64,000 nucleotides of DNA from Chloranthus sessilifolius (GCA_021018995.1 CM037588.1:149067725-149131724), one strand, 5' to 3'. Counted from the stretch's first letter, positions 655 through 61,135 are shown. The notes: generated by a model not told the origin, from the letters alone. Numbers and translations: made by a program.

Positions 655-930
655 ATCATCGTTCCACCCTCGAGCGGTCTAAAGGGCTCGCTCGAGCGAG
701 GATGAATAGGAAGAAATATAACTCTGGGCTCGCTCGAGCGGTCCCCAAAACTAAAGGGAAGTTCGCTCGAGCGAGGGTTCCCAGTAATACTTCGATGGCT
801 CAATTTAACCGCTCGAGCGACCTCGATTTAACCGCTCGAGCAAGGTCTGGTGACCGCTCTAGCGAGGTCAAGTGACCGCTCGAGCAAAGTAAAGTGACCG
901 CTCGAGCGAGGTCTGGTGACCACTCAGTTC
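655..930. repeat. Array of CGCTCGAGCG palindromes
   Basis: About seven copies of the self-complementary core GCTCGAGC plus two near copies are spaced irregularly over 275 bp, roughly 510-780 bp into solo LTR G. The flanks extend many copies to CGCTCGAGCG or GCTCGCTCGAGCG. Spacers such as GGTCTGGTGACC recur in part of the array. Each copy has two or more CpG sites, and the surrounding LTR is much less CpG-rich. Confidence 0.9.
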
Positions 931-1399
931 TTGGTTTTTCGAATACAAGAAACTTGGGGTTGTACACCTCAATGGTTCTAGTGATCTTTCTAAACCTATT
1001 TTTGAAATGTAGGTTTGATGCATGATCATGAATTATAACCCTCTATGAGCAGGCGTGCTTTGAGATTCGTCGAGGTAGGGAATATTCTTGAAACATGTGC
1101 ATTATCCCGTGAAATTCATATGCGTAGTGTAATCTATTTAAATAGTCAAATATTGCATGATCCTCATGATAAGGGTGTGTGAGTGAGTTACAACGTCAAA
1201 GTCTTGAGGTCCCCAGGGGACGAAAAATCATATAGTTCAAACAAAGAAGGGTGCGACAGAATTATGGGGCATCCCAGGGATGCAGATGAAAACTAACAGA
1301 GAAACGTAAGTAATGTGATAAGGCCTAATGTAATATAATTAGCACAATCACGATGAATAACTATATGTAAAGCACATTGATATTTTTATTATTTAAGGT

Positions 1400-1905
1400 T
1401 GATTAGAATACCCCACCGACGTGGCGGGATACCCACGACTGACTCGACAGGATATCTGTGACCGGTATGGCGGCCAATCCGTACATTCATAGCACATCCC
1501 AGGGATGTAGATTGAGAATAGACCCCGCCACCTATGGGAAAGGGGCTCGGGCAGTGTTCCCAGGGAATACATATAACAACTGTCTAGTTAGACGACGATG
1601 GCGGGTATTCCATCGGGGCTCGATGCTATATTGCTCGAGGACTACTTAAGTTAAGATTTAAGTGATTAGGCCAAATTCACAACCAAACAAATAAGGAGAT
1701 TAAATAAAACTATGCTAAGTAACGGTCAAAATCATTGGGTTATTTCAAGTTACTCAAATTGTTGTCCATAAGTGATTACTTGATAATTCTATGCTTGTTA
1801 AATTGCTGACATATGTGTGAAGGTTAATCTATATGTTCTTTTTGTTTCCCTACGGAGCTAGGATGTAGCTCACCCCCTTAGACTATACGTCGCAGGTCCA
1901 GGACT
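1400..1905 (+). promoter_or_regulatory. Conserved LTR blocks (GGCGGGATA repeats; GATGTAGCTCACCCC)
   Basis: Positions 1410-1490 hold two to three degenerate tandem copies of a unit of about 24 bp containing GGCGGGATAYCCACGACTG. Positions 1861-1898 hold GATGTAGCTCACCCC followed by GACTATACGTCGCAGGTCC. Both blocks recur at matching positions in D (55434-55530, 55913-55950), in C on the other strand (56480-56530, 56900-57000) and, more diverged, in H (42180-42290, 42661-42695). Their conservation across diverged LTRs suggests function, perhaps in promoter or RNA processing; that is inference. Confidence 0.6.
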
Positions 1906-2379
1906 GGCGGTAGCAAAGACTTTGGGAGAAGCTGGTCCAAGGGTTTCGAATTTCGTGCCCACAGAAGAGTCAGAACCTCCTCCTGAGGAATTCTTCTAGG
2001 AAACCCGCTGCATACTTTGAGAGTGAGTTGAGAGTATTAGGTATGGCTTGGTATATCAAGCCTCTTTATTTCGAATGTTTTAAATACCGTTTCTTGACAA
2101 AACGTCTAGGAGGAACTATTATCACTAAACTTTTGGGTAAGTTCTTATGTCCATGAATTGGCATGGGACAAGGACTGCCTTGTGATACCTTGATTGTTTT
2201 GAGAATTCATTTAGAGTAACTACGTGTGCCTCAATCATAGCTTTGGCTTGTATATATCTATGTTTTATTAGGGACCCGGGGCACGGCCTTGAAGGTCGTG
2301 CAGATGGCACGGATTTTGGGGTACCGAAATTCGGGCTGTCACAATATTAAAATCGCATTATCTTCTTGTGGGCACTTAC

Positions 2380-2451
2380 ACAGCCTGAAGATTTGTTAAG
2401 TTCCCTATACTTGGAGAGAGAGTACCAGATAAATTCTGACTTGGAGCTCCT
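2380..2451 (-). CDS. LRR receptor-like kinase exon, NIK/SERK-type
   Basis: This exon is exactly 72 bp, the standard length of single-LRR exons in NIK/SERK genes. On the minus strand it reads GAPSQNLSGTLSPSIGNL and then TNLQAV, the canonical first LRR of NIK proteins. The acceptor is a TTGCAG at 2452-2457 and the donor is GTAAGT just below 2380. It joins in phase to the exon at 1-97. The intron between them is 2,282 bp now but would be about 81 bp without the solo LTR and its target duplication. I could not find the upstream exon encoding the LRR N-terminal cap and signal peptide between 2452 and 9450, so the gene may be truncated or have a very long upstream intron. Confidence 0.85.
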
Positions 2452-2457
2452 CTGCAA

Positions 2458-12120: not shown

Positions 12121-12149
12121 AGCAGCTAAGCTATGTGTGCATACGATGC

Positions 12150-13731
12150 TGTAGACACCCAAATTTGGCCCAAGGCCCAATCGAAACACACTTCAAGAGA
12201 TATGCACTTCCTAGCTTCTGATGGCATGTCCTGTACCTTTAGCAACCTTTCTGAAACCTTAAGAGTCATCCCAAACCCTTAGGAGTTACCCCAAATCCCT
12301 TAGAACCTACCCTGAACCTTTAGGAACCAATCCCAACCTTTAGAACCCCTTCCAAAAAACCCATACCTGACCCTCCCGGGCAATGGATAGAGAGATCCAT
12401 ACTGGGACTAGCTGAGATCTTCTACTATAATTGAATCTTATACCATTGAAAAGTAGAAGTCTCCAGGTTTCCAACAAGCTAAGAATCATCTCATTTGGAG
12501 TAATACATCGAAAGATATCGCGTTCCGAATATTCTGACAAAATCGGGTTTTGAATTGGGGATCCATATGGATTTGACACATGTAATACATGCGCCAAGCC
12601 ATTTATGGGAAGAAATGGCTTGGCACAAGTAATACTTGCCCCAAGTTCAAGTTGGTCCCCCGGCGGGCTTGCAACCTTCCAAGCACTATTTTACTGTATA
12701 TAAGCTTGGCGCATGTAACACATGCGCAAAGCTTAGCTACAGTAGCTGTGGATTTTTTGCTCGAATTTTACTTTTGGGGTTTGACTTGTTGACCATCTTG
12801 GTGCCCTAGGTGTGTTTTATTAGTTATGTTTCACCCCTCCTTACTCTATTGCAACCCTTAAGTGATTTGAAACTCTACCCTATCATCCACCATTGAACCT
12901 AACCTTCACAATTTTCCAAGCTCTTGAAAACTTAGGAAACCTTAGATGCTAGATTACCTATTTGTTAATCCTATTTAGCCTCTAAACACCCTCCTAACCT
13001 CCCCTTTTCCTATAAATATAGAGGCACCCCTCCCTTTGAATGGGCTTGAAAATTTTCCTAAGAGTAGAGAAAAGCCTTTCCTCCCTTTGGTGCCCCATTT
13101 CTCATATAAATTCCAGAATTCAAAAAGTCCCCTTAGACCCCATCTTCCATCAAAACCCCCTGAGTTTAGGAGAGAACTATCCCCTAGCCTTCTTTCTCTA
13201 CCCCTTAGCCATCAAGCCTTAGAGGTTAGAACCCATTCTCCAACCATTCAAGCCATTGGAAGCTCATCAAGTGCACCTACGTGGAGGTCCACAGCGGTGC
13301 TACAAGGGCTCGAGAGCTCCGGCTCTCCCCTTTGTCCTCTACCTTCTTTATCTTTTCTCTTATCCGCTAATTTGTGTCATTACGCTGCCAAACTCTGGGC
13401 AAGAACAGAGGAGCACAAATAGGATCCAAGTGCCTTAGGGCAAGGAGAAGTGCTCTTTCCTTTTCATTTTTTTATTTTATTTTTGGCCATAAGTAGAGAC
13501 CGCATTAAGCAAGTTGATCGGGTGCCTAACACCTTCCCGATCGATAACTGAAGCCCCTACCCAAGAGCCTTTGACGTAGACTAGTGAATCAAAGTCATAT
13601 TTGGCACTTCGGTGCATTTAAATATTGATTTGAGGTTTCTCTAGACACCAAAAGCTCCGGGTGGCAACTCTTTATTTTTTTGCGAGTGCGCATCGATGCG
13701 ATGGGACCGCCACGGATCCCATGGTTGCATA
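12150..13731 (+). repeat. Element B 5' LTR
   Basis: A 1,582-bp LTR starts TGTAGACACCC and ends TTGCATA next to the primer-binding site. It matches 30081-31648 throughout. A TATAAATA box lies at 13011-13018. Three palindromic motifs of the GCATGTAATACATGC type lie at 12575-12737, about 275-435 bp upstream of the TATA box. Confidence 0.92.
12575..12737. promoter_or_regulatory. Element B LTR palindrome cluster
   Basis: Three copies of a palindrome with core CATGTAATACATG are flanked by complementary TTGGCG/CGCCAA arms: at 12575-12600, at 12617-12645 (variant CAAGTAATACTTG, compensated on both arms) and at 12702-12737. The cluster recurs in the 3' LTR at 30493-30657. Arms extend to 12-14 nt each, so hairpin formation is possible. 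Confidence 0.85.
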
Positions 13732-13733
13732 GA

Positions 13734-13751
13734 TGGCAACTCTACTAGGGA
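13734..13751 (+). promoter_or_regulatory. Element B primer-binding site
   Basis: TGGCAACTCTACTAGGGA lies 2 nt after the 5' LTR. It parallels the TGGCGACGCCACTGGGGA of element A at 32614-32631 (minus strand). Such sites pair with the 3' end of a host tRNA to prime minus-strand synthesis; an arginine tRNA is usual in this lineage. Confidence 0.8.
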
Positions 13752-15028
13752 GTAGCTCGTAAAGCTTCCCCTTAAATTTTAACCTTTTCTTAGATTTTAC
13801 TAACATTTTATTATTTTTTACTCACCCCTACAATTACGTTAACTTTTCTCACCCCTACTTTTACGTCATTTACGAGCCTTAGCCAATTGGCAGGCCTACT
13901 TGTGCATTATCTTTACATTTCTTTACTTTTTTCGTCATTTACACGCTTTAGCCGTTTGGCGGGCCTATGTGCGCATTTACTTTCTCGCGATCATATACTA
14001 TCTGTGGACACCGACCGGTAGAGGCAGCACGGGACCATCACCACCCATTTTTGAACTCTAAAGAAAACTCCTCTAAAATTGAAAATTAAAATTGAACCAA
14101 CAAGGGGGACTTAATTAAATTTTGCGAGGTAGATTTTCAAAGGGTTGGAATTTTCTAGGCAAAGATACAAACTCTCGGTTCTTAGTACAGTGGCAGCCCT
14201 TAGTGGTGATGATCCGGAAAAGTAACACCCCACCTAGTATCTGAGAAAGCGCTTGCGCTAGAGGTATATCAGGTGGGTAACCTATCTCGTTATAAAGCCC
14301 AAAACCCATGGGAGAGAGCGTTAGTAGACCCGCATCGGCCTTGTATCTCTTAGGTTCGGTGAGGAGAGACTCGGTGCAATTAAGCATTCTGTCCTCGGAA
14401 GCATAGCTTCTAGAAAAATAAAAAAAAAAAGAGACCAATTTTGGGTTGTTGTTCTGCTGTCAAACCTATTTGACCTCACTATTTTGCCTGGCGCAACTAA
14501 TACCTGCGCCAAGCAAAAATACCCAAGTTTGCTTTGGCATGACTAATACATGCGCCAAGCCAAAAATACCCAGTTTTGCTCTAGCGCAACTAATACATGC
14601 CCCAAACTTAGAACCTGAGTAATTTGGCTTGGCACTTCTAATACTTGCACCAAGTCTGGTGTAAGCAGTACAGCTCAAATCTATGGCCTATCTTGCCATC
14701 TTGGATTCCCTGATTAGTGGCTTAGCACCTCTATTTAGGTTTCGTATTATCCAACACCCAATATGCCCCCGCTAGTCAAAAGAAGGTGACTTCTTTTTTA
14801 CCCGCTCTGAGGGATCAAGTTATTTACATTGATTTCCGTACCTTTAATAGATCAAGGGGTTTTCCCTTTGACTCCTTCGAAGCGCATCGAGGTCTCGCCG
14901 CGGGACTTATTTAGGGTACAAAAGTCACCCAAAACGGGAATTCAAAGGCCCCAGAATCCTTTATCAAATTATTTACAAAAATTTCAATTTTTTTTTAAAA
15001 TAAACTAAAAAATAAAAAATAGAGACTT
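13752..15028 (+). other. Element B leader with palindrome array
   Basis: This is an untranslated leader of about 1.3 kb. Two related hairpin-like blocks (TTAGCC-AATT-GGCAGGCC type) lie at 13873-13905 and 13945-13975, and a similar block occurs in element A's leader. Four copies of the element's palindrome lie at 14487-14513, 14532-14560, 14584-14607 and 14631-14661, each with GGC(G/A)C and G(C/T)GCC arms around an AATAC centre. They sit about 370-540 bp before gag. Confidence 0.75.
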
Positions 15029-17413
15029 GTGGTGCCGGCACAAGGGCATCATCTTACCCTCCGTCATTCTATAAGGAAGAAGGAGGAAGCTTTATGGGCC
15101 CCATCCGAGGCACCCATACCCTACACATCACCGAGCCATGCCGTGGGCGGTGGATCCGGCATATGCCGATCTCGATTCATCCCCGCCACGTTCTCCAACT
15201 CACTCCCATGCAGAGGAGATGTTCACATCCATCCCCCTCACCCAATCTCCCTTTACCATCACCGGCCCATTCGGTGCTCCTATTTTCCCATCCACCACCT
15301 CTCAAAACACCTAAAATTCAACCCCCCATTCCCCATCATTTTCCCAAACCATGCCCATTCCCCCATCCATGGCCATTCCTACTCTATCCCATCCTCCATC
15401 CACACCCATTCAAAACCCGACCCAATTTCCTGCCTTTACTACCATGCCCCATTTCTCATCTTCTCAACACATACCCAATCCACTCACACTTACCCATGCC
15501 ACATCCGATCCCTCAAATCCCTCATACATCCTTCCATCTACCCAGGTCATTCCTATTTTTACCGAAGCTATGCCCGATTTTTCTCATACATCCCCCATTC
15601 TTCATCATCCAACATATACCCAATCCACCCGCATTCACCAATGCCCCACCTAATTTCTCTAACCAACCCTATATCCCACCATTTACTCAGGTCATGCCCA
15701 ATTTTACCGGGGCCATGCCTAATTTCCCCACCACATTCATCCCCTCCACACCCCATCATCCCTTTGATACACCATCGCCATCCAATCCCTCCCCAATGGC
15801 CATGATAGAGGAGATAGTCCAGGCCTACACTAGTTGGAAAGCCTCCCAAGACAACCCCTCTCATCCACACCACACATCCCTAAATCCATCCCATACACTA
15901 TCAAGCGTCCATGCCTCATTCCCCCATGACCGCCATCAACCCCCTATCATCCATACCATCCAAGGCCCCATGGCCCAAACCCACCAGGGCCCCATGACCT
16001 ATATGCCACAAGGCCTAATGGGTCAGACCCATCAAGGCCCAATAGGCCATACCCACCAAGGCCCATTGGGTCATACCCACTAAGGGGATAAACCCATTAA
16101 GGTCTAATGGTCCAGACCCATCAAAGCCCAATGGGTCAGACCCACCAAGACCTCATGGCCCAACTTTCCCAAACCCTCATGGCCCAAAATCCCCAAGGCT
16201 TTATGGCCCAAACCCATCAAAGCTCTTTACCCTATGCCCAAGCCCAGCAAGGCCCAAACCTTGGAGCCTCACACCCATACCCTTCACAATTCCTTCTGAA
16301 TTTCACTCACCCACAACCCTCATACCCTGCTCAAACCCATACCCTGCATCAACCCCAACTCACCCATGGCCCTACACCCCAAAGTCATCTCTAAGCTTTC
16401 CCCCATACACAATGGCCCCATCAGGTCCCACCCTAAAATCCAACTTCCATACACCCCATCACTCAGCAAAATTTTCCTCACATACAATGGTCACACACGA
16501 CCCTCATTCAGTCCATGCAATACCAACAAGAAAATCTCACCCTCACTACACCATATGTAGACTAACAATATGAAGAGGACGAGATCAAGAACAACAGGCT
16601 TCTGTTGGGGCATTGGCCAACATTAATCCTCCACCCATAATCACCAACCCCCTGGTAGCGCAGAGCAAATGAAGACCGACTACGGAAAAGATAACCCCAT
16701 TGTCTAAAGAGTCAGAGCAGTTGAAAGAACAACTGGATAAAATCTAGAAGAAGCTATTAATGATGGGTGGAGCCAAAATCCATGCCACAAATTTTTTAGA
16801 CTTGTGTTTATTTGTTGAAGTCCCATTGCCCCCAAAGTTTAAAATGCTGGTTTTTTATAAATACAACGACACGGGCAATCCCATTGCACACCTCAAGTCC
16901 TATTGTGGGGACATGTGTCAATATGGAGGGGATGAAAGGCTCCTTATAAAAATCTTTCATAAGAGTCTAACTAGCCCAGCCTTAAGATGGTTCACGTCCC
17001 TAGAACCATCCATGATAAAGGCATGGAAAGATCTGACGCATTTGTTTCAAAAGCAGTATGCCTACAATATATACATTGAAGCTCGCAAATCATATTTGAC
17101 CTGACTAAAGCAGAACCCTAATGAGACTTTCAGCGATTACTTGGGACGTTGGAGAGAACTGGCAGCTCAGGTAAGAAATAGAATACCTGAAGACGAATAG
17201 ATTGAGGTGATTTCAAAGAATACGTTGCCAGTTATCTCGGACTTCCTCATTTACCAACAACAATTCAGTTTTGCTTATTTGGTAAGGAATGCCAATTGTT
17301 GCAAGGATGCCATCAGAGAGGGGTGTCTAAGCAAGAATGTATCTGGTGGAGCCAGCGAGTTCAGGTGGTTCTCTGAGCAGAGGAATGAGAAAAGAGCAAG
17401 GGTAGATGTGTAG
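15029..17413 (+). pseudogene. Element B gag, fossil
   Basis: The N-terminal half (15029-16560) is extremely Pro/His/Ser-rich. A repeat of about eight residues (MxQTHQGP) lies within 15970-16230. The retrotransposon-gag core follows at 16760-17413 and contains HLKSYCGDMCQYGGDERLL and RWRELAAQVRNRIPEDE. The gene encodes the capsid-forming protein. It is broken in several places. Confidence 0.85.
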
Positions 17414-17530
17414 AATATTGCCAACACGTGGCCCAACGCCAATATAACCCCATTCCAATTCAAAGTCGCCTAGCCAACTGCAGTTAGAATCGAGCCAATA
17501 CAAAGAACCGAGAATGGGCAAGGGGCACAA

Positions 17531-18474
17531 ATGACTCCAGAGCAGAGAAGGGCCCACTATGACCGAGTTTTCATGCCTTTGAGACAATCATTGAATGTCT
17601 TGTTGCCTTTGTTAATAGAAAAGGGATTGGTCACAGCACTCCAACCACGACCCCACCGAATCTCATCCCTAGGAACTATGACCCCAACACTCATTGTAAC
17701 TTTCACCAAGGGCCAGGCCACCCAACTGACCGATACTTCCCATTGAAGCACGTGATACAAGATTTAATCGAGGCCGAGAAAATCATTCCCCCTGCACTCC
17801 CCCAAGCCACCCAACATACGAACATACATCAAGTACCGCTACCCCCACACCCTACCGGAGGAGCAGGTCCGAGACCCACCATTGGTATGATAGAAGAGGG
17901 CGATGAAGAATTTGAGTTTGACCCATAGTATTACATCAGTGACCGAGAAAATTTTGTGGCACCGAGGCAAAGAAATCGAGAAGATAGAAGCATTGGGGTG
18001 ATTGAACCCTTAAATTTGTTAGATTATTTTCCCAACCCTGCACCCCAAATAGAACCCATAGATCTTAGGGCGTACTCCCCATTACCCACCCCCGTCAACT
18101 ATGTACAAGTTAATGCTTATCGACCATACACCACCACTCCCAAATTACCGAATGGCCAATCATGTCTCCCATCCATCACCTAACAGTTATCAATGGTCCA
18201 TCCCTACCCCATTACCCCCAGCACAACCACCCACAAACCTCATCACCCCTACTTGGCCTACTTTTTCCACCTACCCTTCCATCACCAAGGTAAACCAGGC
18301 ATTGCCCACCCACCCAAGCCATTAGTACAAGCACATCAAGTACCGGTAGCCACTCCATTTCAGATTCTGGGGCTAACCTATAATCCTCATCAAGTCCCGC
18401 TCAATTATGAACAAATAGATGTTAATGTCGGCAACAACAAGGAAGGGGTAGTGGACTTTGTCAATGATCCGTAA
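17531..18474 (+). pseudogene. Element B gag-protease linker region, fossil
   Basis: Several open pieces encode a segment beginning MTPEQRRAHYDRVFMPL, a HVIQDLIEAEKI motif and Pro/Tyr/His-rich linkers. In Tat elements the corresponding part lies between the gag core and protease and often carries a zinc knuckle. No intact CCHC knuckle is evident here. Confidence 0.65.
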
Positions 18475-48620: not shown

Positions 48621-48874
48621 GAAACTAATTGAACTCTGACAGGGGATACTATTACTCATGTACCTTATAAGATAATTTTATAATATTAAAATAAGGTAGT
48701 AACCAAGTACTTTTATTTTATATGAGAATAAAATAATACTAAACTATAAGTGTATAATATTTATTAATTTTATATTACTATCTAAAATTACTTTCTCTTT
48801 AAATATATCATCATATATTGTAAGAGATACTTTAATTAATTTAATATCATCCTATGAAATAAAATCAGATAGGT

Positions 48875-49005
48875 TGGTCCACATCAGATAGGTCAAAGTC
48901 TAACATCAGATGTGTCGAGATCCACATCAGGTGAGTCACGGTCCGATACATCAGATGGGTCACGGTCCAACATTAGATGGGTCACGGTCCAACATCAAAT
49001 GAGTT
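48875..49005 (-). repeat. 22-bp minisatellite with CATCTGATG core (F)
   Basis: About six degenerate copies, minus strand, of a unit near CCATCTGATGTTGGACCGTG. The homologous array in E (53300-53512) has about nine copies. The palindromic CATC-N-GATG core is the best-kept part of each unit. Confidence 0.85.
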
Positions 49006-50102
49006 AAGAAGGGTACGAATTCGAAATAAGGAATGACACCTTGCATGTGTCTTATAAGACAAAATTTTATTACTTTATTTTTATAATAATGTAGGTACTT
49101 AAGTAGAACAATTAGGTAAAAATATATTATTATATAACTGTAAGTTGTATAACACTTTATTATGTAATATTTTAATAGATATTTAGTTTAAGTTATAAGT
49201 GTTTATAATATAATATATTCTTATAAAAGCACAAGTTCTAATTAAATATTCACCCATAAAAATAGAACTCGACCAAATAAAGTAAAATAGAATCAGGCGA
49301 TAGGTTGGAAACGAAAGAAACCTACTTAAGTGTACGAGTTTTTATGGGCAATTGTCATTTATAGAAATAAACAATAAGAAGACAGTCACTTTTCTGGACA
49401 TGAATATATTACTATTCTTATAATGTAAAAGATGTCATATTATAGCGGTTAAAAGGCAACGCACAGATTACCTTCTAAATTTTAAAGCAATGTAACCAAT
49501 TGAGTGAAACTAGCAATACATATAATATAATAAAATCACATCAGTTGAATTGACAATAATGAAGAAGACTAATATATATAATATTTAATATAAAATAGCT
49601 ATGCACCATTCAACCAAGTTAACCGACCGAGCGGCAATATTAATTGGGTTTACTGTTTTTACTCCAATTAAAATAATTAAGTTCAAAATAAAACAAGTAA
49701 GGTTTCGAAATAAATTAAATATATAAATAAATAAATGATATCAGAACAAAGATAAATAACATCTTTCAATCCTAAATTAATATTATTTAGAAAAGAAAAT
49801 AGGTTCTTTTTATTTAACCCGTCGATACATGATCGAACCGTATCCTACGCGACGGGATCTGAGAGTACGAGATGGATGGATGGGTACCCACCTCTTGAAG
49901 CGTGCTCGGCGAATCGACGGCGGTTAGGGCGATAGAGATCGGCGTCCACACGATGGGCCGTCCACGATTACTCCGTCTTCACCTCGATTTGATGATAGAA
50001 AAATACCACGGTGGTTCTTGTGGAAGAACACACAAGAGATTAGGGTGTTTTTATAAAAGGGTGGCTATAGAAGAAGATGGAGTGACGGCTTAAACTCACG
50101 TA

Positions 50103-50164
50103 GTAAGATTTGATCCTTAGACCTCTTGTTTATAACAAAAGTCTTTCAACCACTAGGCCACCAC
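50103..50164 (-). promoter_or_regulatory. tRNA-like pol III box A/box B segment in LTR F
   Basis: On the minus strand, GTGGCCTAGTGGTTGAAAGA resembles a tRNA box A (TRGYNNARNNGG). About 30 nt further, AAGGATCAAATC resembles box B (GGTTCRANNCC). The spacing fits a tRNA or tRNA-derived SINE head. No complete cloverleaf with a 3' acceptor match is evident, so this is a tRNA-like relic, not a called tRNA gene. E keeps only the box-B half near 51865-51885. Confidence 0.5.
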
Positions 50165-50336
50165 ACAACTTGTGTCAAATAAGGATAATTTTAAATATAA
50201 AACCTTTTTGAAAAATCAAAATGTGTACTTTTTCAACTAGGATAGGTTCCGGTATGGAGCACTAACACCACGCTCTGTGCAAAACAAATCTAACACCACA
50301 AATTCAGTTTTAAATTTTTAGGGTCATTACACATAC

Positions 50337-51707
50337 ACTTATAGGCATGTTTCTTTGGGCTGAGACATGTTCTAATGGTAGATTGTCAATTAGAAAATTT
50401 AAATTGATCGACAATTATACTTTAATGGTGTCAGATTAAAACTTTAACTTAATGATATAAAATCATTTAAAAATGATTTTAGTGTTTAAATATTGGTCAG
50501 GAGCCATTATCCCTTTCATAATTATTTTCAACTTCATTTCTTCTTTTAAGTGCCTCTCATTGCCCTCATTGGATAGTTGTTATGCTTCATTTATTTCATA
50601 TTTGGTATTTGCATTACCTATTTTTTTAACGGCCCTGACTCCCTTGGCCATGACCATGATTTAAACACTTAAGTGGTGTTTAAATTATTTTACGTACACC
50701 ATCAATGGTTTAAAGTGTTGACAAGATAGATCATAGATTGAAGTGCAACAGGCACAAAAATGATATTGTAGGGAGATTTAGACCATCTAATCCGTGGACT
50801 ACACCATCAAATTGTTATTTTTTGTTTCAATGATTGATATTAAAGTTAATCAATTGGATAAGTCACATTCATTTATAGGCATAATTCTTTTAGTTGAGAC
50901 ATGTTCCAATGATTATTGCTATTAGGACAATTTAGAATGATCACAAATGTGTGTTACATGATATGATGATAAATTACACTTCAATAGTGTGAGATTAAAA
51001 GTGAATAATTTAATGGTGTAAAATTATTTAAATATCATTTTGTATTTAATGACGGTGATCAGGAACCATTATCCCTTGTTAAACTTGTTTCGACTTTCAA
51101 CCATTAATCGGCCATTTAGTGAATGTGTTTCGAATCTTTTTCTCTTTTTTCTTTTTTCTTTGTTAATGTAAACGAATACAAGATCAACGAGGGAATCATT
51201 ATGATATAGTCATTGAGTAGAAAAAGTATGGAAAAATAAAATAAAATAAGAGAAAGGACAATTTTTCAAATCCATTATCCAATCTTTATAATTTGTCCAT
51301 CCCGTGTATTATTTTAAAAATCTCTGCATCCAATAGGAAATTGTCAAAACCGCCTTAAATCTCTTTTTAAGCTATAAAATGACAGAATGGCCTTGATTTT
51401 CAGAAAGTAAACAAACAGCTATTGAATTCGGATTCCGCTATACTGGCACAACTTAAAGCCGACCTTGAGGGACCGTTTCAGTCTACTATTTAACTTCAAC
51501 GATATATAATAAACTAACGTGATACATAAAAGGCTAATGCGTCTATAGTAGATCGATTCGATTTATCATAGACTATTTCAATTAATATTTGGTCATTTGT
51601 ATAAGATTTCTACCCATCTTATGATTTTTGAATTTATGAAAATGTTAATAACTATTTTCAATAAAAAATCTTTCTTCATAATTTAAAATAGGTAACAAGT
51701 GTATAAC
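50337..51707. repeat. Old dispersed repeat, copies 2 and 3, between LTRs F and E
   Basis: Two diverged direct copies start near 50336 (ACACTTATAGGCAT..GAGACATGTTC) and 50868 (CATTCATTTATAGGCAT..GAGACATGTTC), a period of about 530 bp. Each contains TCAGGARCCATTATCCCTT. The stretch 50680-50860 also matches 35010-35231. The rest (51130-51707) is AT-rich with nothing recognisable. Confidence 0.65.
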
Positions 51708-52651
51708 TGTAATGACCCACAATTTTTTACTTTCTTTTATTGGTATTAGATGGTGCTTTGTACCTTGCATAGTGTTAGTGTTCTACACCAGAACCTACCG
51801 TAGTTGACAAAATACATATTTTGATTTTTCAAAAAGTTTTATATTTAAAATTGTCTTTATGAGGTCTAAGGATCAAATTTGTGAGTTTTAAACCTCTATT
51901 TTAAACCTTAAAATAAAAGTCTATACACGTTTATTTAGTGCGACTGCTTAACACCGAATTAATGCCCATATATTATAAATAAGAAAGTTACGGAGAACCC
52001 TAAATCATTATTATAAGAATTCTTCTTAAAAACCCTAGCCGTCACTCCATTTTCTTCTATAGCCACCCTTTTCTAAAAACACCAAAATCTCTTTTAAATC
52101 TCGTGTGTTCTTCCACAAGAACCACCGTGGTATTTTTCTACCGTCAAATCGTGGTTGAAGAAGGCGGCGTAATCGTGTACGGACCATCGTTTGGACGGAC
52201 CATCGTGTGGACGCCAATCTCTATCGCCCTAACCGTCGTCGATTCGCCGATCACGCTTCAAGAGGTGGGTACCCACTAATCCATCTCGTTCTTCTCAGAT
52301 CCCATCGCATAGGGTACGCTCGATCGAGTATCGACGGGTTAAATAAATCTTACCTGTGTATGTTTTTATCTATAAATATCGTAATTAAAAATAATGAAAT
52401 GGCTAACCCTTGGCCATAGATTCTATGCATTTATTTTCTTCGCACTTCTATATATTTCATTTATTATTGTCTTTTCGCTTAGATCTACTGTGCTCTTGTG
52501 TATATTTTATTATTTTTCGTCTAAATTTATTTCGCTTTTGAAAATGTTTATTTATTTTATTATTTTTCATTTAGATTTACTTAACTCTTTGGTATATTTT
52601 ATTTAATTATTTCCTTTTTCGTTTAGAACTATTTTAGGCTTGCAAGCATGC

Positions 52652-52653
<2 letters not shown>

Positions 52654-52711
<58 letters not shown>
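52654..52711. repeat. Microsatellite (AT)n
   Basis: About 29 AT units inside LTR E. Confidence 0.97.
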
Positions 52712-52714
<3 letters not shown>

Positions 52715-53299
52715 ACATAAATAATATAGAGTATTTTGTGCAAAAGAAAATCGAGGTTGGTGTGCGTAATTGAGATCAAGGGTTTTTCGTCATTTAAAGG
52801 GTGCGGTCAAGAATCTCCTATAATTAAGAGCTAGAAATCTAGTTGAACCTAAACCCCAGTTCGACCAATTGGAAGTGACCTCGCATAGTAGTAATTGGGT
52901 TGCCATTTTTTTTGACAATCTATTTCATAATTTTACTTATAATGTTGGTGTGTTAAGGGGATTGATATTATGCTGTTGTGGACCACCATTGATTGTACTA
53001 ATCTACTTCACTGTCAAAAATTGGTCCATATGTATATCACTGACAAAAAAATTGATTTAATCTAACTCCAAAACTTGGGTATTATACAACTATTTATTAG
53101 CACAAAAATTTGTAAAAGAAGGGATTTATTGGCACAAAATTTGAGTATTACACAACTATTTATTATACAACTTGGGTAATATACAACTATTTATTAGTGT
53201 CCCAAAAAAAAATGTAGCATCATTTGTACTCGTTAGACCCGTGAAAAATACACACGTTTCCACAATAAAAATCGTTGATTGCCTTGAATCTCTATTATC

Positions 53300-53512
53300 T
53301 TTCATCCTTGATTTGATCCATCTGATGTTGGACAGTGACTCATCTGATGTGGACCATGACCTATTTGATGTTGGACTATGACCCATCTAATGTTGGACCT
53401 CGACCCATCTAATGTTGGACCGTAACCCATCTGGTGTTGGACGGTGACATGTGTGATGTGGCCCATGACCCATTTGATATGGACTATGACCCATCTGATG
53501 TTGGACCGTGAC
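53300..53512 (+). repeat. 22-bp minisatellite with CATCTGATG core (E)
   Basis: Nine tandem, mutated copies of a unit of about 22 bp (CCATCTGATGTTGGACCGTG plus AC). Element C is inserted exactly after one unit's GTGAC. Confidence 0.9.
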
Positions 53513-53917
53513 TGTGACAGCCCGAATTTCGACACCTCGAAATCCGTTCCATCAGCACGATCCTCCAGACTGTGCCCCAAAGCTATGCACGGAACATTGG
53601 TATAACAAGTAATAATAAAGAGATAAAGTAAATAATTGCATAAAGCGAAAAAAGTTAATATGCCCAACTGGCACATTCAAAAGACAGTTTTACTTTCATG
53701 CCACTGCATGAACAGAGAACCGACCCGAACCATCTATGATAAAAAGATCACCCCAGATGGTTCGCCAATAGAATACTTCAATTTAATTATATTGTTTATC
53801 AAAATAAAGGCTTGACATACCAAGCCGTACAATTAGCTCTCAAAAACTACTCTCTGTCAAAGTACATAGCAGAGTCTCCTAGAAGAAGTCCTCAAAAGGA
53901 GGCTCCAACACGTCTCC

Positions 53918-56405
53918 TGTAATAGCCCGAAAAATCACGCTAAACTATGACCTCGGGATCTGTGCCCGATCGGTCATAGGTTTGACCAAATAGAAGTCCA
54001 ATAGTTAGTAAGGGGTGTGACGAACGGATGAGATGTGATGGGTTGAATGTCTATGTGGTGGGTGTTGTAAATCTGAAGTCACATACACCTATCGCGGTGC
54101 ATGTGCTCAACACACAAGCTAGAGGGGAGATAAAAGGGTTTAATAACCCTAAAATAGATGTTTGGTGGTTGAGAGAGAAGTAAAGAAGAGAGAGAGAGGA
54201 GTAAAGAGGGTGATTAAGCAAGGAGTTATTGGGGGTGATTGGAGGAGGGAATTCAAGCATTAAAGAGGCCGATTCTGCGCAAGGGATCCGTTCAAGCCAA
54301 AGCTGGAACCCTAGCCTTCCAACCACTTGATTTGAAATCAAGTTGAGATTGATTAAAGGTAAATTTTTGTGAATAAAATGCATAGATTGTAGAGGTTAAT
54401 TGTAGTTGAAAAAATGGTTTAGATTGTAGGATGATGGTTTAGAAAAATAGAGGAAAAAGAGTGGAAAAAGGTTGGGAAGAACAGCTCAAAGGGGGCTGAA
54501 TCTGGCAATTTCGATTAATCGAAATTGGGATTCGATTAATCGAAATCGCCAAGAAGTTGAAAAGTCAAGGAACCCGAGTTCGATTAATCGAACTGAGTTT
54601 CGATTAATCGACTATGGACCTCCAGTGGACCCCAGAGGCTGGAGGAAATGACTTGGGGTAAACCGACTAATCGAGATGGGATTTCAATTAATCGATTTCA
54701 AATTTCGATTAATCGATTTGGGATCGATTAATCGATTTGGGATCGATTAATCGATTTTGGAAATTCGATCACTCGAATTGAGAATCGACATGATAGGTAG
54801 GGAATTTCGATTAATCGAATTTGGTTTCGATTAATCGAATGGGAATCTCGATTAATCGATTTGAGAATCGATTAATCGATATTGACTTTCGATTAATCGA
54901 TTTTGGAGTTCGATTAATCGACTGGGCTAAATTTTGTTGACTTTTGAGTTGACTTTAAGCTTTATGGAGGGTCTTGGACCTCCTTTATTGCATCCTTAGT
55001 GATGTGTTTCACCTGTTATGTGGTACCATAGGTGGTACGTGTGAGCTAGTGCACAAGGAGCCACGTGGGGCCTTGATGCGTTGATCAAACAAAGACTTAA
55101 GGTAGGGAACACTTTGAACATGTACTTTATTTTACAAAAGCATGTATGTAGTGATATAGAATTCAAATTCAAAATATTTTATTGCTTAAGAATTGTAATA
55201 AGTGTGTGTGTGTGACATCAATAAGAGTAATTATAATGAGTCATCCCCAGGGGACGAAGAAGTAAAGAGATAAGAGTATCAAGTGTGATGCAAGTGAATG
55301 GATACATCCCAGGGATGCATCCAAGATTGAATCATTTTTTATAGGGCCTAACTAATATAAGATAGCACACTTACACGATGAATAATTATATGTAAGGCAC
55401 CGATATTTTTGTTATTTGAGGTTTGATAGGGTACCCCACCGACGTGGCGGGATATCCACGACTGACACGGCAGGATATCCGTGACCGATACGGGGGCGAA
55501 ACCGTAGGCCAGTGCGGAGGCTTATCCGTACACAGTAAGCGCACCCCAAGGGTGTTAATTTGAGACAAGTGAAACCCCGCTACCAATCCCCAGGGGAAAG
55601 GAGCTTGGGTACTATATTGTATTCCCAGGGAATACATTAAAAGTGTCTATATAGATGACGATGATGGGTATCTCATCGGGGCTCGATGCTATATTGCTCG
55701 GGGATTACTTAAGTTGAAAGTTTAAGTTTTGCTTTAGGCCTTTTCAGCATCATTCATGAATAAATGAAAACATAAGTAATTACCAGTAAAATGAAATGCC
55801 TTTTAACTATTTTCATCAATAACTGCATAGACACATCATGCATGGCATATCATGGAATATATGTGAGTAATAATTTATATGTTCAACTGTGTTTTGTTCC
55901 CTATTGAGCTAGGATGTAGCTCACCCTATAGACTATACGTCGCAGGTCCACTACTAGCAGCTGCCGAGGCTTCAGGAGACGCTGACCCCGGTGAGTCGGA
56001 CCTTGCGGCCGGAGATGAGTTGGAGCCACCTCCTGAGGACTTCTTCTAGAGGACTCCGTTGTGCCGCTTTGAGGGCTTTTTGAGAGAGATTTATACGGCT
56101 TGATATGTCAAGCCTTGTTTTGGTTAAACCATGCATATATTGAGATTGGGATTATTCTTTTGGGGCGAACCATCCGTGATGATTGCTATCATCGATGGTT
56201 CGGATCGGTTCTCCATTCATGCAGAGGCATGAGGGTAGAACTGTCTTTTGGAGAATTGCTTTAATATAGATTTAAATTCTGCAGTTTCATTTATTATTTC
56301 ATTTTATGCTTGATATGCCAATGTTCCGTGCTTAGCTAAGGGGCACGGTCAAGATGACTGTACTGATGGCACGGGTTTCGAGGTGTCAAAATCCGGGCTG
56401 TCACA
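53918..56405 (+). mobile_element. Solo LTR 'D', nested in the LTR of C
   Basis: A 2,488-bp LTR (TGTAATAGCCCG to GGGCTGTCACA) is flanked by a perfect TCTCC duplication (53913-53917, 56406-56410). It belongs to the same family as C's LTR but has the opposite orientation, so the two form an inverted repeat of about 2 kb per arm. There is no internal region. Confidence 0.92.
54490..54925. repeat. TCGATTAATCGA array in D
   Basis: Thirteen perfect CGATTAATCG cores plus about three variants lie in roughly 430 bp, 570-1,000 bp into the LTR. Most extend to 12- or 14-bp palindromes (TTCGATTAATCGAA, ATCGATTAATCGAT). Spacers vary in length and sequence, so this is not a simple tandem repeat. Confidence 0.93.
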
Positions 56406-57544
56406 TCTCCAGGCACATAATCCGAATCACCCGGATCTACGTCTCCCGAAGCCTCAGCTGCTGCTAACAAAGGACCTGCGACGTATAGTCTAAAGGGGTG
56501 AGCTACATCCTAGCTCAATAGGGAACAACACAATGAACATATAAATCAAAACTCACATATATTCAATGATATTTTAAGCATGATGTGTCTATGCATTAGC
56601 TAGAAAATAGTTCAAAAGATGGTAATTGCATTCAAGATTTACTGGTAATTTGTATGTCTTACTTTACTGTTGATTTATCATGAATGACACTGAACAGGCC
56701 TAAAGCAAAACTTAAATCTTCAACTTAAGTAATCCCCGAGCAATATAGCATCGAGCCCCGATGGAATACCCACCATCGTTGCCTAAATAGACAGTTGTAA
56801 AAAATATATTCTCTGGGAATACTACCCAAGCCCATTTCTCACTAGGCGACGGGGTTAAATCTCAACTCAACATCCCTAAGATGTGCTTACTGTGTATGGA
56901 TAGACCTCCGCACTGGTGTACGGATTGGCCGCCGTACCGGTCACAGATATCCTGCCGCGTCAGTCGTGGTTATCCCGCCACGTCGGTGGGATATTCTAAT
57001 CAAACCTCAAATAACAAAAATAACATGTGCTTTACATATAGTTGTTCACCGTGTAAATGTGCTATCTTATATCATTTAGGCCTTAACAGTAGTTATTCAA
57101 TCTTATTTACATCCCTGGGATGTCTAAATTACTCGCATCACACTGATGCCTTTATCACTTTCTCATCCCCTGGGAATGTCTTATTCTCATTAGATTACTT
57201 GATCTCAGTTACTCGCGTCACACAGATGCCTTTATCACATTCTTGGTGTCACATACACACACCCATTTTCACAAAGCTTTTCATATTTAAAATATTTTCA
57301 ATTCTGATAAACATATCACTACATACATGCTCTTACAATTAAAGTATATGTTCAAGGTGTTCCCTACCTCAATTCTCTGAAGGTCCAAGCATCAAGGTCC
57401 CACGCGGCTCCTTGTGCTCGCTTTCACACGTACCACCTATGATACATCACAACACATGCAATACATCACTAAAGATGTAATGAAGAAGGTCCTAGACCCT
57501 CCATGAATCTCAAAGTAAAACTAGAAAGTTAAGTAAAACTGCCA

Positions 57545-57960
57545 AAGTCGATTAATCGATTCCTAAAATCAATTAATCGAAACCCAAATCGATTAATCGA
57601 TTGATCAAAATTCAAATTTGATTAATCGATCCCAAATCGATTAATCGAAGTCTCTAACATAATAAGGTCGATTCTCAAATCGAGTGGTCGAAAATTCGAA
57701 ATCGATTAGTCGATCCCAAATCGATTAATCGATTTCCCAACTCGATTAGTCGATTTCCCCAGGTCTTGTTTCTCTAGCCACATGAGGTACCTAGTCGATT
57801 AGTCAATTTCTAAATCGATTAATCGAACTTCCAAATCGATTACTCGAAATCCAATTCGATTAGTCGAAATCGGGCATGCTTGACTTTTCAACTTCTGGGC
57901 CAAAATCGATTAATCGAACCTCTATTTCGATTAATCGATTTCGCCGGATTCAGCCCCCTT
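57545..57960. repeat. TCGATTAATCGA array in C LTR
   Basis: Seven perfect CGATTAATCG cores and about as many one-base variants (CGATTAGTCG, CAATTAATCG, CGATTACTCG) lie at the same relative LTR position as in D. Many variants break the CpG on one side only. Confidence 0.92.
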
Positions 57961-58517
57961 TCAGGCTGTTCTTCCAAAACCCATTCCTTTTCTTTTCCCT
58001 TCTTTTTCTAAGTCTTTAATCTATGATATTAACTATGCTAGACTGAACTTAACTCATCAACGATCCATGCATTAATTTAGATCAAAAACTCACCTTCAAT
58101 TTATCTCAAATTGATCAATGTCTAGGTTGGAATGGCTAGGGCTCCAGCTTTAGCTTCAATGGCCCCAAATGCATTGAATCCGGCAATCAATGCTCAATAT
58201 TCCCTCAATCCAACCACAATAACTCCTCTTTACTCTCTCTCTCTTCTTAACTCTCTCTTCAACAACCATCAAAAGGAATTTTAGGGTTATTAACCCTTAT
58301 ATTCTCCTTCCTATTTCGGTGTTAAGCGCATACACCAAAGATAGGTGTATGCGGCTCTAACTTAACACCATACTCTACACTTAGGTCACATTCGCACCAC
58401 TTCAATTTATCACTCAATGAGTTCACTGTTTGACCATCACTTGGTCAACCCTATGACTAATCGAGCACGGATCCCGAGGTCAAAGTTAAACGCTCAATTC
58501 TTTTTCGGGATATTACA

Positions 58518-58530
58518 TTCTCCCCACCTT
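58518..58530 (-). promoter_or_regulatory. Element C polypurine tract
   Basis: On the minus strand AAGGTGGGGAGAA directly precedes the 3' LTR start. It primes plus-strand synthesis in this family. Confidence 0.85.
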
Positions 58531-58739
58531 GAGAATTTTCGTCCTAAAAAATAATCCAAAGGTGTTCTGGTGTGGTACCCCACACACAGTGGTGTCACGT
58601 ACCCACTTACAAAATTAAATTACGCATTACACAGTACGAGGATTAAAACTAATGCAAGTACATCCAAAAACTGATCTGTATTCCATTATAAATTTTCAAA
58701 ATATACAAGTTTCTTCAACTATTTTCGATAATTACAATC

Positions 58740-60304
58740 TAGAATTTGAACATAACAGTACAAAATATGTAAAAATGGTCACAAAAGAGAACTATCGTCA
58801 GGCGCTCAGGCCGTCCCCTCTCATGGCTGATCTGACACAGGGGCGAGCTGCTCTGACGGAACTGGCTGCTCAGGTGGTGGCTGGGTCGTCTCCGTAGGCT
58901 GCTCGAGCTATTGGGGCACCGAAGCAGATGCATCGGCCGTAGAGGTACCCACGTGGAAGACGGTACCCGTGTGAAAAGCTGTCCGACCCGCAGTCCACGC
59001 CTCCTCCTGCGCGAGACGCTGCTGGTAGTTCAACAGATAGATGTACCGTAGAGTGTGGTACATCAAAAAGTTCATCCATCGATTCATACTCTCGTTGTTG
59101 GCCTCCATCAGGGCCAACACATCCTTTATCATGGGCGCCGGGCGAGCCGCTCGTCGGCGGTATGAAGAAGTCGATGTGGCTGCCGCAGACTGCTCTGGTG
59201 GCGTAGACGAGGCGGTGGTATGGGAGGGTGCCCCCTCCGCTGGTGGCTCAATGGGGTGTGCTCCCCCCACAGGTGGGTCCTGATGTGGTGGTGGGGGTGG
59301 TGGTGGCGCTACTAGTGCTGCTGCATCTGGACCCTAAGCTGGTAGGGTCCACTTGAGCAAATTGTAGCTACGGCTCCATGAAGCAATGGAGATATGCTTC
59401 ACGCGATCCGTAGCCCTCTCCTCGTGGGGTGAGATGGCGTACTCTGGAGCGTCTGAGTAACACTCCAGCATGCTCGAAATGAGGCGAGCATACGGCATCT
59501 TTTCTTTGGGCCTCAAATTATCCTTCATCAACTTCCCCTTTATGTAGACCATCCCCTCTAGGATGATCATCGTAGGGTCAAACCAACGGCCACAGAAGGC
59601 CGCGTAGAGTGCCTGCTGCACTTTTTCCACCCGCTCAGTGTCATGACGCATCGAGTAGAGGTTGCACTTGATTATGGAATCAAACATTCACATGTAATGT
59701 GGGAGATCGACCATCCTAATGGACAATCCCGACCCCTTTTTCCCTTTGGTCATACGGGTCATTATTTCTTCAAATTTCACCTCTTCCGCAAAGGGTGGGA
59801 AGAGGGTGGTCTCGGGTACGAAGTCTAAATAGCATTCGAGGACCTCGTGGATGTGGCGACGAGTGAAGGTGTAGTCACGACCCTTTATCTTGGTCGTGAC
59901 TATGTCGTCGGTAGGCCCCTCCGTCAGCCCTTGGTAAAATAGTCGGACCAATCTAGGGTAGTAGGACCCGCGGATTGGTTTCAAAAGGTTGCTGAGGCCC
60001 ACCTTTACGAGATAATTTTGAGCCCATTGGGTCTCGCCCACCACATCGGGATTTGTAAATAGTTCCACATCGATAATGTACTCGGTCTCGAAGGTGTTTG
60101 CCGCCCGCCACATTGGGATTTGGTGATGGCATTGGTGAAGATTTGCGCGAAGACGCGCTCGTCGAACCGGATGTGGTATCCAATGCCGATGGTGATGGAG
60201 GCCTCACCGGTGATGGGGGTAGGTGGTGGCAGTGCGATGTTCTTACGCCGGACTGGAAGCTTAGACGTTGCCTTCTTCGAAGACAAACACGTTGTAGGAG
60301 GCAT
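58740..60304 (-). pseudogene. Element C accessory ORF downstream of pol ('putative plant transposon protein'-like), fossil
   Basis: On the same strand as pol, between the chromodomain end and the 3' LTR, consecutive open stretches begin near 60304 (MPPTTCLSSKKATSKLPVRR). They contain YYPRLVRLFYQGLTEGPTDD, an RDYTFTRRHIHEVLE segment, FCGRWFDPTMIILEG and a C-terminal SMNRWMNFLMYHTLRYIYLL helix. The order and LVRxFYxxL / xIxxLL pattern recall the plant retroelement family annotated as 'putative plant transposon protein' (PF20167-like). No catalytic motif is seen. Ordinary Tekay elements end shortly after the chromodomain, so the ORF is an addition. It has a few breaks. The family call is tentative. 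Confidence 0.6.
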
Positions 60305-60524
60305 TTTGAGACAAATGTGATAGAAACTAGGATTTATATGGCTCAAATTGGAAAGAAGAACGAAAACTAGGTTTTTGATCCGAATGTAGTTGGTTTCGAT
60401 CCGAACACCCAAAACCCTAGCTCTCCAAGTCGCTCGAAGAAGAAATAGCAAGGCGCGCAAGAGCTAAAAATAAATTTAATTTCAAATGGGGAGGAATCCC
60501 CCTCGATTTATATATATATACCCC

Positions 60525-61135
60525 GGTTCGATTAATCAATTTCTAAAGTCGATTAATCGAGTTTCAAAATTAAGTTTAGCCGCGCGAAATCGATTAATCG
60601 ATCCCCAAAATCGATTAATCGAGACTCAAAATCGATTAAGCGAAATCATTTTGATTAATCGAAATCGTGGTTATTTAAATTTTTAACTTTTCAAGCTCAC
60701 TGGCGTGAGCCAGTCGATTAATCGAATCCCACTTCGATTAATCGAAATCCCTAAATCGATTAATCGACTTTCACTTCGATTAATCGAAATCGTGCAGTCC
60801 TTCAAATTTTTTTATTTTTTATTTTCCTAAAACTTTCAAGTGCCTCAATTAATCGAACCTCCAGATCGATTAATCGAATTTTACTTCGATTAATCGAAAT
60901 CGTAAAAACTCTTCAAGTTTTTCTAAAATTCTTAAGTTATTCGATTAATCGGATCTCCAGATCGATTAATCGAAATCCAAAATTGATTAATCAAAACCCA
61001 GATCGATTAATCGAAATTGCACTTCTTCAATTTCCTGAATCCTCATTAAATCTCCACTCACTGGTGCATGCCAGTCGACTAATCGACCAAAATCGATTAA
61101 TCGATTTGAAAATCGATTAATCAGTTTTGATCAGA
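60525..61135. repeat. TCGATTAATCGA array upstream of the C accessory ORF
   Basis: About thirteen perfect CGATTAATCG cores plus several variants lie in roughly 610 bp, between the end of pol (61406) and the accessory ORF (60304). On the element's strand they sit 220-830 bp upstream of that ORF. The motif is the same as in the LTR arrays of C and D. Confidence 0.93.

Follow-up and report, generated by a model that had tools for sequence, protein, structure and literature searches.

Do the short palindromes that crowd the long terminal repeats (LTRs) of several nested retrotransposons in the genome of Chloranthus sessilifolius serve as binding sites for a protein, and might that protein be encoded by the elements themselves? 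The question is raised by a single stretch of 64,000 nucleotides (GCA_021018995.1 CM037588.1:149067725-149131724, hereafter the window), plant-like nested retrotransposon DNA with a GC content of 40% and an observed/expected CpG ratio (o/e) of 0.65 over the whole 64-kb window. A preliminary description of positions 655 to 61,135 had pointed to family-specific palindrome arrays at equivalent places in LTR elements, here lettered A to H, that it took to be unrelated, and had proposed them as a possible counterpart of the anti-silencing system of VANDAL transposons and their VANC proteins. All results below come from this one window. The reading that we prefer, although tentatively and at somewhat less than even confidence, is that the arrays are candidate binding-site clusters for a dimeric factor, that the unique 3' region (U3) of the LTR and the promoters of accessory genes may be co-regulated through them, and that the factor may well be the element's own accessory protein.

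Palindrome arrays and their family specificity

We compared motif counts with those in 20 dinucleotide-shuffled windows. The family palindromes include TCGATTAATCGA, CTCGCTCGAGCGAG and GGCGCATGTAATACATGCGCC. With at most one mismatch, TCGATTAATCGA occurs 45 times against 0.2 in the shuffles, spread over the D LTR, the C LTR and a third array in C, and 32 copies in the window are exact (13 in D, 7 in C and 12 in the third array, at 60549-61104). At the same stringency CGCTCGAGCG occurs 11 times (0.15 in the shuffles), nine of them in G, and the 21-mer of B is found 13 times with up to five mismatches (0.05 in the shuffles), always in B, where it occupies the U3 of each LTR, the leader and the stretches upstream of two accessory genes. 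The excess over shuffled sequence, proposed as a check in the preliminary description, is therefore clear for these motifs and fails for two others, which we rejected as enriched: the simple A motif ATGCATGCAT, of which there are 7 copies when one mismatch is allowed, against a mean of 2.7 and a maximum of 7 in the shuffles, and CATCTGATG, with 23 copies at that stringency against a mean of 17.1 and a maximum of 29. Given as a plain count, the A core GTGCAT-N3-ATGCAC is present three times in the window with at most one mismatch, each time in A. The arrays, to which no strand is assigned, are:

667-908: G array; nine CGCTCGAGCG sites with at most one mismatch, gaps 22, 42, 33, 46, 23, 22, 22 and 22.
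54511-54921: D array; 16 TCGATTAATCGA sites, 13 exact, one with one and two with two mismatches.
57548-57938: C LTR array; 15 TCGATTAATCGA sites, seven exact, six with one, one with two and one with three mismatches.
60528-61124: third C-type array, past the stop of pol and ahead of the accessory open reading frame (ORF); 20 TCGATTAATCGA sites, 12 exact, six with one and two with two mismatches, a count that leaves out a site at 60503 (three mismatches, within the TATA tract given below).
12575-12728: B U3 palindromes, 5' LTR; three GGCGCATGTAATACATGCGCC sites with 2-4 mismatches, gaps 47 and 86.
30495-30648: B U3 palindromes, 3' LTR; three GGCGCATGTAATACATGCGCC sites with 1-5 mismatches, gaps 47 and 86.
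14490-14651: B leader palindromes; four weaker copies with 5-8 of 10 arm pairs, gaps 46, 47 and 48.
26191-26258: a pair of B palindromes (the 26-kb pair), gap 47.
28918-28938: a single B palindrome, upstream of the first antisense accessory ORF.
33650-33819: A U3 palindromes; three sites with centres 95 and 46.5 bp apart.
31682-31757: A leader palindromes; gap 47, with GTGCAT-ACT-ATGCAC as the core.

A third A leader palindrome is cut by the insertion of B, and its halves lie at 12130-12149 and 31649-31658.

Palindrome excess was evaluated in 13 regions at three arm/spacer settings with 300 shuffles of each region, and the p values are nominal. At arm length 5, six regions reached p<=0.01 (G, C, D, the third C array and both B U3s), the A leader (0.013) and A U3 (0.02) were marginal, and there was no excess in H (0.35), the B leader (0.62), the 26-kb pair (0.15) or F (0.39), while in E no palindrome was found. 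At arm length 6, C, D, the third array, both B U3s and the 26-kb pair gave p<=0.007; G (0.13), A U3 (0.39), the A leader (0.086) and H (0.08) were without excess, and the B leader, E and F held zero palindromes. The H region, 41025-41695, is a degenerate G-type array in which GCTCGAGC occurs five times in 671 bp with at most one mismatch, where the remainder of the window would predict 0.21 (P ~3e-6, for a region that was picked beforehand and evaluated post hoc). G, C, D and B are genuine palindrome clusters, A is a weaker one, and H is degenerate but carries the motif of G. E and F, which had been listed with the others, do not belong among them: they are minisatellites in which palindromes are not in excess and which lack homology to the LTRs of D, G, H and B, and we rejected them as LTR palindrome arrays. 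They could be the LTR of some other family.

The motifs are family-specific, as originally described. Fifty of the 52 C/D-motif sites, 11 of the 12 B sites and all three A sites lie in their own elements, and the 11 G-motif sites comprise nine in G, one in H and one elsewhere. The half-sites of A and B are both GYGCAT, with a spacing of 3 bp in the A palindromes and of 7 bp in those of B, and despite the divergence of their motifs the two have in common a site step of 46-48 bp (47 in the A leader, 46.5 in the A U3 along with 95; 46, 47, 48, 47 and 47 in B, and also 86). One B U3 site, 12622/30542, differs symmetrically on both arms, with CAAG...CTTG for CATG...CATG. As signs that sites have been kept, this symmetric site and the recurrent 47-bp step, which is present in U3, in the leader (46-48) and in one accessory upstream region, are suggestive only. 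Helical phasing was rejected as a claim of its own; 11 gaps of at least 41 bp gave a resultant of 0.43 at 10.5 bp and 0.45 at 10 bp.

Different motifs at a like position in related LTRs

Self-comparison of the window reduced the named clusters to two homologous LTR lineages and one other repeat, so the LTR elements cannot be called unrelated. In a first, chromovirus-type lineage, LTRs G, H, C and D are mutually alignable at 60-73%, and in a second the A LTR aligns to the B LTR at 63-66%. Motifs differ between the two lineages and also inside each. The LTRs and elements concerned are:

89-2343, plus strand: LTR G, of the chromovirus-type lineage, with ends TGTAAGAGCC...GGCTGTCACA.
40102-43193, plus strand: LTR H, 3092 bp, with ends TGTAACACCCC...GGTTGTCACA, placed in the chromovirus-type lineage by 60-63% homology.
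53918-56405, plus strand: D, a solo LTR nested in the C LTR, with TG...CA ends and identical 5-bp flanks (target-site duplication, TSD, TCTCC).
53513-58517, minus strand: C LTR, split by D into parts 58517-56406 and 53917-53513.
12150-31648, plus strand: B, a full-length element with LTRs at 12150-13731 and 30081-31648 (88% identical) and TSD GATGC.
32634-34035, minus strand: A LTR, starting TGTAGACACCC at 34035; its 3' end is approximate and was set by homology to B.

LTR G is homologous to the D LTR across 1073-2343 (65%, E 1e-120) and to that of C at 72%. D, G and H, to which only LTRs are attributed, were assigned to the chromovirus lineage by LTR homology, and no TSD was seen at the ends of G or of H.

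Counted from the 5' end of the LTR, the arrays of C, D and G start at 580, 594 and 579 bp, respectively. Downstream of the array these three LTRs align strongly (z 27-60; 27-39 for G versus C/D), and across the array G is at most weakly alignable to C/D (z 1.4 and 2.9). This supports a turnover of motifs in place, in which related LTRs would have retained a like array position with a differing motif. In the second lineage, the distances given in the preliminary description are borne out: a CTATAAATA box comes ~275-460 bp downstream of the clusters in both A and B (287-456 bp in A, with the box at 33363), but the two LTRs are homologous and we rejected their TATA distances as independent evidence. 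CpG o/e within the arrays is 2.36 in C, 2.21 in D, 1.26 in G and 1.22 in H versus 0.67-0.82 elsewhere in those LTRs. The presence of CpG in most motifs had been remarked on at the outset; it translates into enrichment in these four arrays and not in A or B, and CpG-richness was rejected as a general array feature.

Sites conserved beyond their spacers

Tandem growth by chance had been named from the beginning as the alternative: neutral expansion of short tandem repeats in fast-evolving LTR or untranslated DNA, with the palindromes incidental. Across 51 C/D-type sites, mean pairwise identity is 0.92 over the 12 bp of the site and 0.36 over the next 7 bp, and 36 of 49 gaps measure 18-22 bp. The 12-mers were chosen by similarity, and a less biased check is provided by 8-mer counts, which presuppose no motif. 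In these, the top 8-mer outnumbers the best 8-mer outside it by 14 to 2 in D, 11 to 3 in C, 18 to 2 in the third array and 8 to 2 in G. We simulated neutral tandem growth by duplication and mutation in 2400 runs each for D-, third-array- and G-like arrays. The observed 8-mer ratio was reached in none of the 2400 D-like runs, in none of the 2400 third-array-like runs and in 13 of the 2400 G-like runs. The C/D-type arrays are more than tandem growth; their site has been held beyond the flanking sequence, and that of G more weakly so. In A, B and H the sites are too few or too degenerate for a comparison of site and spacer.

Neutral growth does have a precedent in the tandem arrays reported between pol and the 3' LTR in about half of recently active Retand elements (PMC11963269), and E/F and several further minisatellites of the window fit it. 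The G-like simulations that matched the observed ratio leave the case against it weaker for that array, and the A, B and H sites are too sparse or degenerate to argue otherwise. It is difficult to reconcile with D and the third array, which keep the 12-mer and not the spacer, or with the recurrence of one motif at separate places within one element. Neutral growth is already disfavoured for C/D, and as an account of the arrays in general we consider it quite unlikely.

The LTR motif recurs upstream of accessory genes

In both elements that keep internal parts, C and B, the LTR motif recurs upstream of accessory ORFs. C has it in the LTR array and before its accessory ORF; B has it in U3, in the leader and upstream of both antisense ORFs. 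The accessory features are:

58908-60463, minus strand: C accessory ORF, fragmented, in sense orientation and located after pol and before the LTR.
60507-60520, minus strand: C TATA tract TATATATATATAAA, 7 bp past the last palindrome and ~200 bp ahead of the first ATG at 60304.
28179-28715, minus strand: first antisense accessory ORF of B, with a match to the Plant Mobile Domain (PMD; PF10536, E 2.5e-12, above cut-off).
25145-25531, minus strand: second antisense accessory piece of B, matching PMD positions 152-287 (E 1.4e-5) and DUF7745 (0.002), both below cut-off.

The strongest anatomical point is the C accessory gene, where the array is followed by the TATA tract, itself among the 112 TATA-like sites that the window has on its minus strand, and then by the ORF, whose second piece has a sub-cut-off match to Transposase_32 (E 1.2e-4). 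In B, the PMD ORF runs antisense to gag-pol between pol and the 3' LTR, and the palindrome at 28918-28938 lies ~200 bp upstream of its open frame and 281 bp before the first ATG at 28637. Extra copies had been claimed upstream of each accessory ORF in B and C, which amounts to three ORFs in the two elements, and the claim stands for all three; the third, the second PMD-like ORF of B, is weakly supported, with its palindromes 0.66 kb away.

A diverged PMD/DUF7745-like antisense piece occupies 25145-25907 in B, additional to the PMD ORF at 28715. A 59-residue piece upstream of it that looked PMD-like gave no match and was not counted as shortening the distance to the 26-kb pair. Homology between the two B accessory genes amounted to one 9-residue match (E 0.99), and TRP28 (PF04195), the antisense ORF of Retand elements, was not found in the B accessory pieces scanned.

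What might bind the palindromes

Palindromic, stepped and promoter-proximal sites with free spacers typify dimeric DNA-binding proteins. Because the sites in the window are palindromic, regularly stepped and promoter-proximal and their spacers are free, we infer that a sequence-specific, two-fold symmetric and probably dimeric protein binds them, with a specificity that would vary by retrotransposon family. Acting through U3 and the accessory-upstream sites, one factor could in that case govern the genomic RNA as well as the accessory mRNA. An element-encoded factor is attractive because the motif and the type of accessory gene both differ between B and C (n=2), because DNA binding is predicted for the antisense TRP28 accessory proteins of Retand (PMC11963269), and because a promoter motif is common to the genes that depend on the host PMD proteins MAIN and MAIL1 (PMC7156037). 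The factor would be the element's own accessory protein or would be recruited by it, the candidates being the Transposase_32-like protein in chromovirus C and the PMD proteins in B. Such a self-regulating loop might lead to activation of the element or to its protection from silencing, by way of an effect on transcription or methylation.

The arrays could instead be U3 enhancers for host transcription factors, as in tobacco Tnt1, a Copia element without an accessory gene; the accessory genes would carry the same enhancer for expression in the same tissue, and a change of motif would reflect a switch of host factor. Sites of host transcription factors would just as readily show this array placement and this motif turnover, and sites do lie upstream of TATA boxes in A, in B and in the C accessory promoter. 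The A U3 has eight matches to CATGCA, the core of the RY element, which is bound by plant B3-domain factors. CATGCA is absent from the A leader, the B U3, the B leader and the palindrome at 28.9 kb, with two matches in the 26-kb pair, so the RY match is not common to all sites of either element. Against a host factor is also the confinement of 16, 15 and 20 sites of one long palindrome to one family; promoters served by host factors usually have, to our knowledge, fewer copies than this. A published parallel is with the BII boxes of the Tnt1 U3, likewise short motifs of a retrotransposon promoter, which are bound by defence-induced host DNA-binding factors (PMC3316501). A host transcription factor is a close rival, nearly as likely as an element-encoded one, and we regard it as a real possibility.

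Several points weigh against an element-encoded dimeric factor, the first being that a host factor predicts everything equally except the identity of the protein. With internal parts preserved in just two elements of the window, the comparison of motif with accessory-protein type has n=2, and the evidence on conservation comes from the copies in this window. No DNA-binding domain was found among the accessory pieces scanned, the Transposase_32 and second PMD matches are below the Pfam cut-off, and single-sequence folds of two pieces, one from the C accessory ORF and the other the first from a PMD ORF, gave an unusably low mean predicted local distance difference test (pLDDT) score of 34. In the case of the second PMD-like ORF, ~0.66 kb separate the 26-kb pair from the Pfam-matched frame downstream, a frame that may begin nearer. 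The pair and its surroundings also align to the B U3 (121 bp, 68%, E 1e-12), and they may therefore be copied promoter DNA and not independently kept sites. The B leader palindromes are weak, H is degenerate and A is marginal. Equivalent placement, part of the first description, applies to C, D and G; that of H differs, its array starting ~930 bp from the 5' end of a longer LTR. Finally, G is also weakly alignable to C/D over the 560 bp ahead of the array (z 4.0 and 2.2), so motif turnover is not special to the array. Relatives sought through the C motif pair, C integrase and B PMD (IMG/VR) and through C integrase (GTDB) yielded 0, 1, 3 and 11 candidate stretches, none of which was confirmed.

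The palindromes might also act as RNA, forming hairpins in the genomic transcript that signal packaging, dimerisation or processing. The 5' leader of A and of B does carry copies, transcription at the 3' end takes in U3, and the change at 12622/30542 affects both arms in the symmetric way that pairing would require. The B leader copies, however, are among the least symmetric, with 5-8 of 10 arm pairs, and the C/D sites hold sequence and not pairing only. Copies before antisense or internal frames and the dense 21-bp stepping are without an obvious RNA role, and hairpins seem to us a very improbable explanation. Both the RNA and the neutral-growth explanations fit less well than do those that invoke protein binding.

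Anti-silencing and methylation

In the system that the preliminary description took as its precedent, a VANC-like accessory protein would bind the arrays and strip DNA methylation from its own family. The arrays of C, D, G and H are CpG-rich, as such a function might suggest, but this follows trivially from motifs that contain CpG. At the 51 C/D sites, CpG transitions are about as common as other changes (10 of 204 CpG positions versus 16 of 408 others), and when the D and C arrays are compared, 14.5% of CpG positions are changed by transition versus 23.5% of other positions. Outside the array the D-C comparison is also without a CpG excess (23.5% at CpG versus 23.2% at other positions), so the C/D comparison is uninformative. 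B is the only copy with two comparable LTRs, and between these, CpG transitions affect 26% of CpG positions, with changes at 9.5% of other positions, to all appearances the pattern of an ordinarily methylated copy. By hand count, the B sites have lost 13 of 26 CpGs, 11 of them by transition. DUF1985 is the domain of VANC proteins; no match to it was found in the C or B accessory pieces scanned, which are short and broken.

The likeness to VANDAL/VANC is otherwise one of design. VANDALs are Mutator-like (MULE-type) DNA transposons of Arabidopsis in which short, dense, family-specific non-coding motifs accompany an extra gene, have been built by tandem repeats and differ between related families (PMC5735166). 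Dense family-specific clusters in non-coding DNA are what we found, most clearly in C/D and G. The carriers here are instead LTR retrotransposons, C with RNase H, integrase and chromodomain and B with gag, reverse transcriptase (RT), integrase and a 5-bp TSD, and their accessory proteins are PMD- or Transposase_32-like. The sites are palindromes of 10-29 bp, whereas VANC motifs are directional 8-9-mers and those of VANC21 are arrayed in one orientation; the system described here is known from sequence alone. MAIN and MAIL1, moreover, act in the silencing of transposable elements, the opposite direction (PMC7156037). Anti-silencing is an open minority reading, unsupported here and in our view improbable.

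A bolder proposal, which we also think unlikely though slightly less so, is that at least two lineages of plant LTR retrotransposons have a self-recognition module, consisting of an accessory DNA-binding protein and cognate palindromes in the LTR and in its own promoter. Fast co-evolution of the two would end cross-talk between sister families, the family would stay transcribed despite silencing, and the module would be an independent counterpart of VANC.

Comparison with other plant retrotransposons

What accessory genes do for the plant LTR retrotransposons that carry them has yet to be settled (PMC7264820, PMC11963269). Among the systems described, the Retand lineage of Gypsy elements resembles B in its long region between pol and the 3' LTR, its antisense ORFs and its family-specific tandem arrays, and a regulatory, DNA-binding role has been proposed (PMC11963269). 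B differs in that it encodes PMD and not TRP28, and in that the motif upstream of its accessory ORFs is the motif of its LTR, a correspondence not described for Retand in the part of that report considered here. Accessory ORFs elsewhere in plant LTR elements, among them gene23 of Grande, are alike in lying between pol and the 3' LTR, with their own promoter and a nuclear product; a palindrome array linking LTR and accessory promoters is not among the features given in the corresponding part of that account (PMC7264820).

PMD is the commonest atypical domain among plant Gypsy consensuses (PMC9289625). The promoter motif of MAIN/MAIL1-dependent genes offers a further likeness, though in the passages we draw on direct binding of PMD to DNA is merely hypothesised (PMC9289625, PMC7156037). 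In sunflower, Athila elements have, as C does, a 3' sense ORF with partial similarity to Transposase_32, as well as a predicted nuclear signal, and Tekay chromoviruses have conserved accessory ORFs (PMC11728184). The Tekay ORF is located 5' of gag-pol, unlike that of C, which lies 3' of pol in a chromodomain element, and the sections of the sunflower report used here make no mention of palindrome arrays in either (PMC11728184). Among the papers listed by our searches of a mostly open-access literature, no title or abstract opening contained a description of palindromic arrays common to an LTR and an accessory promoter.

Should accessory proteins indeed bind the palindromes of the LTR and of their own promoter, the job of an accessory gene would become testable with a few short DNA probes and the persistence of these genes would be explained. 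Transposon families that insulate their control circuits from each other would then also be known from a second, independent case.

Structure of the elements and other features of the window

C is a chromovirus, defined by a Gypsy-type pol with a C-terminal chromodomain (RT_RNaseH 4e-31, H2C2 6e-19, Chromo 5e-6, all above cut-off), and a purine tract, AAGGTGGGGAGAA, adjoins the 5' end of its LTR at 58518. B has internal matches on the plus strand to gag (16748), RVT_1 (20705) and rve (22263), and its 5' LTR is followed by TGGCAACTCTACTAGGGA, a candidate primer-binding site. A retains its LTR, leader and part of gag on the minus strand, the gag being assigned via DNA homology to B. The remaining features are:

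61406-63480, minus strand: 3' part of C pol, with RNase H, integrase H2C2, SH3_Tf2-1 and chromodomain; rve is below cut-off.
53300-53512, plus strand: E, a 22-bp minisatellite, into which C is inserted.
48861-49009, minus strand: F, an inverted copy of the 22-bp minisatellite of E.

B is inserted into the leader of A, and the insertion point is the centre of the A leader palindrome, with the TSD GATGC spanning the dyad (12130-12150, 31648-31658). A weak preference for palindromes at insertion has been reported for plant LTR retrotransposons (PMC6911290). A 35-bp tandem array of ~9 copies (29148-29485), which in B lies past the antisense PMD ORF and ahead of the 3' LTR, resembles the Retand arrays between pol and the 3' LTR. 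Ahead of gag, B has long proline-rich open frames (15016-16573) with 24-bp and 48-bp minisatellites, and a Pfam scan of two pieces of these frames gave no match.

Between the inverted minisatellites F and E (48861-53512) is an inverted segment pair, 49764-50419 and 51620-52399 (~66%), possibly a foldback-like element or one with terminal inverted repeats. Remains resembling long interspersed nuclear elements (LINEs) are present at 35423-36712 and 43549-44987, with LTR H in between; the first is an ORF with DUF4283, and ORFs ~7 kb beyond it resemble, as judged by eye, a LINE reverse transcriptase. At 39206-39618 are two tandem 225-bp units, 92% identical, starting TGTAATAGTCCCACATC.

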